Of a DNA stretch of 42,359 nucleotides, positions 41,694-42,359 are shown one piece after another. How positions within the stretch are numbered: the stretch's first letter is position 1; each line of letters begins with the position of its first letter. The position numbers were made by a program, and so were the translations under genes. Origin of the DNA: Bacteroidales bacterium (lineage in GTDB: Bacteria; Bacteroidota; Bacteroidia; Bacteroidales; UBA932). A model generated the notes under the pieces. It searched no databases. It was not told where the DNA came from and was given only the letters and a program-made list of their open reading frames with translations. Location of the stretch: positions 1 through 42,359 of the forward strand of contig JABUTN010000007.1 in NCBI GenBank assembly GCA_021443665.1. Reading direction: 5' to 3'.

Positions 41694-42359
41694 TTATCTC
41701 CCGAAATACACCAAAAGGACTGAAACATCCGCAGGGGAAACTCCGGGAATTCTTGATGCCTGGGCAATGGTGCGCGGACGATGTTTGTTGAGTTTCATCC
41801 GGGATTCTATGGAGAGGGATTTTACTTTTGAATAGTCGAAATCCTCGGGAATTGACAGCATTTCAAGATGTTTTATCTTGTCCGCCATAGCCCTTTCCCT
41901 TTCTATATAGCCGGCATATTTGATCTTTATCTGTGTCGATTCGACTATTTCTTCGTATAAAGAAGTCTTGCCGAGTTCCTTGATTTTCCTGAAAGGAAGA
42001 CCTTCATAAATAGCCATAGCATCATCCTTCTTGTGTTTTTTATGGCCATTTGCCCGTCTTTTCAGCGATGAAACTGTTCCACGTGGAACAAATTTGAGAA
42101 GCTCAGAAAGCTCAACATCGGGTCTGCTCAGCAAATTGGAAACAGACTTTCGTGAGTCAAGAGCTGCTGAATTAATAGAAGAAAGATAAATATTCACAGC
42201 CTCAGGCTCAAGTTTTGTTTCATCGGAAAAGGCTGCAAGATCCTTGCAAAGAGAGTGCTTTTTCTCCCACAACCTGTATCTGTATTCATCACAAAGACCG
42301 AGTTTGTAAGACAAAGGTGTGAGCCTGTCATCGGCATTGTCCTGGCGGAGGAGAATGCG
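41694..42359 (-). CDS. mnmG: tRNA uridine-5-carboxymethylaminomethyl modification enzyme MnmG, C-terminal part (N-terminus outside window)
   Basis: Frame is open to the right edge (ILLRQDNADDRLTPLSYKLGLCDEYRY...); IKIKYAGYIERERAMADKIKHLEMLSIPEDFDYSKVKSLSIESRMKLNKHRPRTIAQASRIPGVSPADVSVLLVY is diagnostic. Confidence 0.95.
   Translation of the reverse strand, partial: RILLRQDNADDRLTPLSYKLGLCDEYRYRLWEKKHSLCKDLAAFSDETKLEPEAVNIYLSSINSAALDSRKSVSNLLSRPDVELSELLKFVPRGTVSSLKRRANGHKKHKKDDAMAIYEGLPFRKIKELGKTSLYEEIVESTQIKIKYAGYIERERAMADKIKHLEMLSIPEDFDYSKVKSLSIESRMKLNKHRPRTIAQASRIPGVSPADVSVLLVYFGR
42075..42090. promoter_or_regulatory. parS-like centromere site (ParB-binding palindrome)
   Basis: TGTTCCACGTGGAACA, a perfect 16-bp palindrome matching the known bacterial parS form, inside mnmG (codons F-V-P-R-G-T). 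Confidence 0.85.

Follow-up and report, generated by a model that had tools for sequence, protein, structure and literature searches.

The 16-bp palindrome in the mnmG gene of a Bacteroidales bacterium is, very probably, a chromosomal parS site, that is, a centromere located within protein-coding sequence that would be bound by ParB and moved by ParA and that would be frozen at the DNA level by selection for ParB binding. The identification of the palindrome as parS is strongly supported by sequence comparison. Single cases of parS inside genes are already known elsewhere (PMC9040568); what is new is the retention of a centromere within a gene throughout most of a family of gut-type Bacteroidales, at a predicted surface loop of MnmG that is able to expand.

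Location of the palindrome

The window, that is, the whole stretch of 42,359 nucleotides analyzed here, is contig C42 of a draft genome (44 contigs, 1.79 Mb, 96% complete). The key features of its right end are listed below.

42075..42090, no strand: parS-type perfect palindrome TGTTCCACGTGGAACA, the sole exact copy in the genome, with a homologous site in relatives
42075..42089, minus strand: codons GTT CCA CGT GGA ACA (VPRGT; V91-T95 of fragment P0001), with the palindrome in frame and synonymous sites frozen in relatives
41961..42074, minus strand: lineage-specific MnmG loop that follows VPRGT immediately (P0001 residues 96-133), delineated by alignment and loop lengths, shortened or missing in relatives that do not belong to the clade
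41694..42359, minus strand: C-terminal 221 codons of mnmG (tRNA U34 modification enzyme; TIGR00136), truncated at the contig end
41252..41692, plus strand: tadA, convergent to mnmG, with 1 bp between the two stops

The sequence-only reading had identified a perfect 16-bp palindrome of the parS type at 42075-42090, and the exact TGTTCCACGTGGAACA is indeed present at these positions. The chromosomal parS consensus is TGTTTCACGTGAAACA (Livny et al. 2007, as cited in the accessible text of PMC10197239), and the 16-bp inverted repeat TGTTNCACGTGNAACA of chromosomal parS is matched exactly by this site and by no other in the 1.79-Mb draft genome; looser parS matches in this genome do not exceed the number obtained with a reversed-pattern control. 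Chance occurrence of the palindrome would agree with a single copy in the window and nothing more, but the exact palindrome appears in 0 of 100 dinucleotide shuffles of the window, and the same place and frame of the palindrome recur in about 85 related genomes, a conservation that refutes this explanation, so that its probability is practically nil. None of the other CACGTG hexamers in the window (22715, 22931, 25504, 29877 and 35328) extends to the full palindrome, as had been claimed, or even to a parS with up to 3 mismatches. The earlier list of these hexamers was faulty, having overlooked 25504 and misplaced 22715.

The palindrome lies on the minus strand in the mnmG reading frame, which encodes FVPRGT as originally read, with the first T of the palindrome serving as the third base of the F codon in F-VPRGT, that is, (TT)T followed by the five codons listed above. 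The mnmG fragment in the window matches TIGR00136 with an E-value of 3e-39, and the missing N-terminal 426 residues are found at the end of contig C33; the ends of C33 and C42 apparently join into one mnmG, a junction that we only infer because the contigs do not overlap. With the tadA stop located 1 bp from the mnmG stop, the usual place of parS, just 3' of mnmG, is occupied by tadA in this genome.

The enzyme core of MnmG is unaltered and its fold family is plain: the solved structure 3CP8 and E. coli MnmG align across nearly the whole length of the protein. Within the clade, the loop that bears VPRGT reaches as many as 185 residues, compared with about 38 for its counterpart in other lineages; these lengths were obtained with simple pattern anchors and are rough as single values. 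In many carriers from many genera, 60-185 unalignable residues separate RP from KYxGY, and an expanded loop is also present in some genomes in which the site has since been lost. In the AlphaFold model of a carrier MnmG (L314; mean pLDDT of 90), VPRGT comprises residues 528-532, directly before the stretch of lowest confidence (57-78 at about 531-580). The low model confidence together with the length variation suggests that the loop containing VPRGT is solvent-exposed.

Selection on the DNA beyond the peptide

The 16 bp are kept across genera far beyond the needs of VPRGT, which answers the question of nucleotide-level conservation raised by the sequence-only reading. Each of the 93 in-gene sites that deviate from parS by no more than 1 mismatch is in the VPRGT frame. 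Although VPRGT has 1536 possible codings, a single 15-base codon string accounts for 60% of the 75 genomes with this peptide, compared to a maximum of 14% and a median of 4% for the top string of control pentapeptides from the same genes (n=61; common to at least 60 of the genomes, with a degeneracy of at least 256). Among the 75 genomes, the third base is 100% fixed in both the V and the G codon, and 4-fold synonymous sites at fixed parS positions are unchanged in the in-gene copies. The amino acid changes that do occur fall on degenerate parS positions (P to S at position 5 and G to E at position 12) or reflect one altered base in the core (R to C or H). Coding copies vary in the same way as non-coding ones, at bases 7, 10 and 16 (counted with a limit of 2 mismatches, which was not applied in the codon test), and the core base pair 7/10 is the pair with which ParB of the G201 type makes no specific contact (PMC7383237).

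These observations bear on the possibility that MnmG needs VPRGT as a peptide motif, for instance to contact MnmE or tRNA, and that the palindrome is a by-product. As would be expected of such a motif, VPRGT is the most common peptide at this place (81 of 100 sites) and has been retained in a dozen genera. However, apart from the dominance of one codon string, the protein accepts VPCGT, VPHGT, VSRGT and VPRET in its place, with DNA that is still 0-2 bases from parS; VPRGT is absent from MnmG outside the clade and disappears upon the loss of ParB (see below); and the loop that it opens has the lowest confidence in the predicted MnmG structure. A motif function is therefore very unlikely to account for the palindrome.

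Distribution across Bacteroidota

The sequence TGTTNCACGTGNAACA is present in 227 of 297 genomes of the phylum, compared to 3 for the reversed control, usually in 1-5 copies per genome that in many cases are no more than about 2 kb apart. In the named genomes of Bacteroidales and Flavobacteriales, which were identified by a contig search using the g162 alignment, the sites are mostly found just past the mnmG stop or near its start; a search with the window's own fragment had yielded no named relative. Within the set built around the family of the window's genome, we compared 143 mnmG loci, 13 of which are order outgroups; the loci were located with a composite bait that combined the C-terminal part from G314 with a typical MnmG N-terminal part and served no other use. 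In most genera of this family, the site lies inside mnmG, at about codon 530. In a FastTree phylogeny of mnmG that was built with the loop excluded, the in-gene carriers form one clade (94 rows, support 99) with few later losses. The well-assembled g162 genomes contain no parS other than the in-gene copy, and a perfect in-gene site is also present in an isolate, Muribaculum sp. An289 (L292). The median gap to the next gene is 155 nt in the genomes with only an in-gene site versus 95 nt, a rough ORF-based estimate; these gaps are not smaller, and shortage of intergenic space is not supported as the cause of the entry into mnmG.

The in-gene copy alone was lost in g150, g159, G357 and G462, all of which keep ParB and mostly have an exact or weaker site after mnmG. 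Altogether, 9 of 66 ParB-bearing genomes have no site at mnmG with at most 1 mismatch, which is partly due to contig ends or to weaker or displaced sites. A second clade (g154 and g182) contains in-frame parS near mnmG codon 230 and again near the C-terminus. In Cryomorphaceae, the mnmG gene of L361 carries the in-frame TGTTTCACGTGGAACA (VSRGT) at a different codon again; this case from Flavobacteriales seems to be independent.

The repeated in-frame occurrence calls to mind the Rickettsia palindromic elements (RPE), which are in-frame palindromic DNA inside genes and occur as dispersed repeats in many genes. An insertion of a mobile palindromic element of this type would be compatible with a palindrome in frame surrounded by lineage-specific extra residues and with several insertion places in mnmG, namely near residue 230 (g154/g182), near residue 530 (most carriers) and a third one in g182. 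Unlike such elements, however, we find what is predicted to be one binding site at one locus. An RPE or MITE would be expected as dispersed copies of a longer repeat in many genes, but these genomes have 1-2 full-length sites each, nearly all of them at mnmG, and the same 16 bp occur as non-coding sequence all over the phylum. We consider a mobile origin extremely unlikely.

Association with ParB and ParA

The check for parAB suggested by the sequence-only reading gave a positive result: the window's genome encodes, on contig C7, one ParB_N protein that also contains HTH_ParB, and an AAA_31 ATPase of the ParA type is encoded directly upstream of parB on the same contig. The nearest solved relatives of this ParB are chromosomal ParB/Spo0J proteins. 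R173 and G201, which are invariant in parS-binding ParB (PMC7383237), are present in 39 of the 39 ParBs examined from the family and the order, with the numbering mapped via conserved spacing; thus, this protein combines ParB_N and HTH_ParB with the R173/G201 signature of a cognate ParB. A Noc binding site (NBS), with A1 and C6 in the half sites and a Noc protein with Q173/R201 (PMC7383237), was ruled out because the site has G1 and A6 and all 39 ParBs have R173/G201.

Genus g155 links the site to ParB. Seven g155 genomes (G363, G346, G403, G414, G425, G436 and G465; completeness 82-99%) have neither a ParB_N match nor parS, and the site and the peptide were both lost, so that the former place of VPRGT reads LPEGD, APEGT and similar. 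The four ParB-bearing g155 members for which mnmG was read, a count that leaves out G378 (ParB present, mnmG not recovered), keep VPRGT and a site at most 1 base off. The joint loss of ParB and the site maps to one event on the tree, and hence this evidence is strong but single. Taken with the codon data, the sequence is kept by selection at the DNA level and is tied to the presence of ParB.

An operator or RNA hairpin that controls the expression of mnmG or tadA, with no centromere involved, could likewise involve a palindrome, which can fold in the transcript, or a bound protein, which could act on transcription. Nevertheless, the site is far inside the mnmG reading frame, an identical sequence is non-coding around mnmG in other classes, the palindrome is lost along with ParB, and the pattern of substitutions follows the base reading by ParB (PMC7383237), all of which makes a purely regulatory role hardly credible.

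No SMC_prok_B match above the family cut-off was detected in 19 genomes of the family, including G000, and two Bacteroidetes gut strains are reported to have no known condensins (PMC10197239). Judging by these genome sequences, ParB-parS probably acts here without a classical condensin and, with no SMC above the cut-off, the mnmG site would most likely serve ParA-driven partition.

Position relative to the replication origin

When GC skew is sampled over stretches of 20 kb in three near-closed relatives (G301, G308 and G389), it turns from negative to positive at mnmG, from -0.008 to +0.117 within 30 kb in G301 and from -0.029 to +0.064 in G389, whereas the change in G308 is more gradual. Further local sign changes are present in G301 and G389, and therefore the arms are uneven. 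The anticipated clustering of parS around the skew switch is borne out by these relatives, in which the sites group at mnmG and this gene sits at the sign change. The proposal that the right end of the window is close to oriC holds for the relatives; in the window's own draft genome, the C33/C42 junction shows only a weak shift in skew, so that the origin proximity of the window rests on the relatives. In contrast, dnaA is far from mnmG and from the skew-defined origin in G301 and G308 (1632 kb vs 0.7 kb in G308). In G308, dnaA is located near the terminus. In gut bacteria, the origin is likewise reported to be away from dnaA (PMC10197239). In practical terms, the skew-defined origin of these Bacteroidota can be recognized by parS at mnmG, and not by dnaA.

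Proposed function, evolution and known counterparts

By analogy with the known ParABS mechanism, we infer that ParB, made elsewhere in the chromosome beside ParA, would bind the mnmG palindrome as a dimer, load as a CTP clamp and spread over the origin region, and that ParA would move the ParB complex such that newly copied origins separate. Bacteroidota have a small number of parS sites, which they keep in the vicinity of mnmG, usually just past the stop or ahead of the start. Under the most plausible evolutionary scenario, the site of the family to which the window's genome belongs would have arrived inside an exposed loop near the MnmG C-terminus, in the VPRGT frame. Thereafter, selection by ParB would have frozen the DNA, while the surrounding protein was free to change and the loop was free to grow. 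A tentative and rather unlikely extension is that ParB clamps loaded at the in-gene site feed back on mnmG expression, or that transcription tunes the spreading of the clamps, coupling translation fidelity to segregation; if so, selection for this coupling would be the reason why parS entered MnmG loops repeatedly, in separate lineages and in the same frame.

The mnmG site resembles the parS of chromosomal ParABS systems in being a 16-bp palindrome, in its R173/G201 ParB with a ParA neighbor and in its position at the skew-defined origin, but differs from these in lying in frame within a tRNA-modification gene, in being kept across one family clade and in often being the sole site, with parAB elsewhere in the chromosome. 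In Bacillus subtilis, chromosomal parS sites are also found inside genes such as spo0J, but unlike the case described here, the in-gene parS is one of about 10 sites rather than the sole one, and we know of no accompanying loop expansion.

In the repABC replicons of Rhodobacterales, parS sites lie within ORFs, including cas genes, and have been proposed to be positively selected (PMC9040568); these sites are inside coding sequence, like the mnmG site, but belong to secondary replicons, are few and scattered and involve another type of ParB and parS, and neither retention across a family nor a codon test is reported in the accessible part of that article. Bacteroides caecimuris and Muribaculum intestinale have ori-proximal parS clusters, an origin that is not at dnaA and no recognizable condensin (PMC10197239); the accessible text does not name the gene at these clusters. 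In the genomes analyzed here, Bacteroidota parS sites of the same sequence are ori-proximal and occupy the same locus, around mnmG, where they are intergenic, past the stop or near the start, as opposed to the coding site.

A review has asked what determines, over evolution, how many parS sites there are and how they cluster (PMC7333895). In these bacteria, many genomes manage with one parS, at one gene across the phylum, and the entry into the gene can be placed on the tree. One stretch of DNA would be under two codes, for a protein and for a centromere, across much of a bacterial family, and the ParB-less subclade is a natural knock-out that separates the two constraints.

Variants of the palindrome core

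The core variants match between in-gene and downstream copies (raw Fisher p 0.001), but this co-variation vanishes after pairing on the tree and, because it is not significant under that pairing, we use it only as an indication of shared relaxation. The possibility that the variants (CACGAG, CACGGG and complements) are due to residues of the ParB recognition helix was rejected, as no diagnostic residue separates the groups; position 184 of ParB is mostly K or R in both. In g144, g151, g152 and g153 (G301, G308, G389, G344 and others), the core is no longer CACGTG but the asymmetric CACGAG or CACGGG or their complements, a drift that affects coding and non-coding copies alike.
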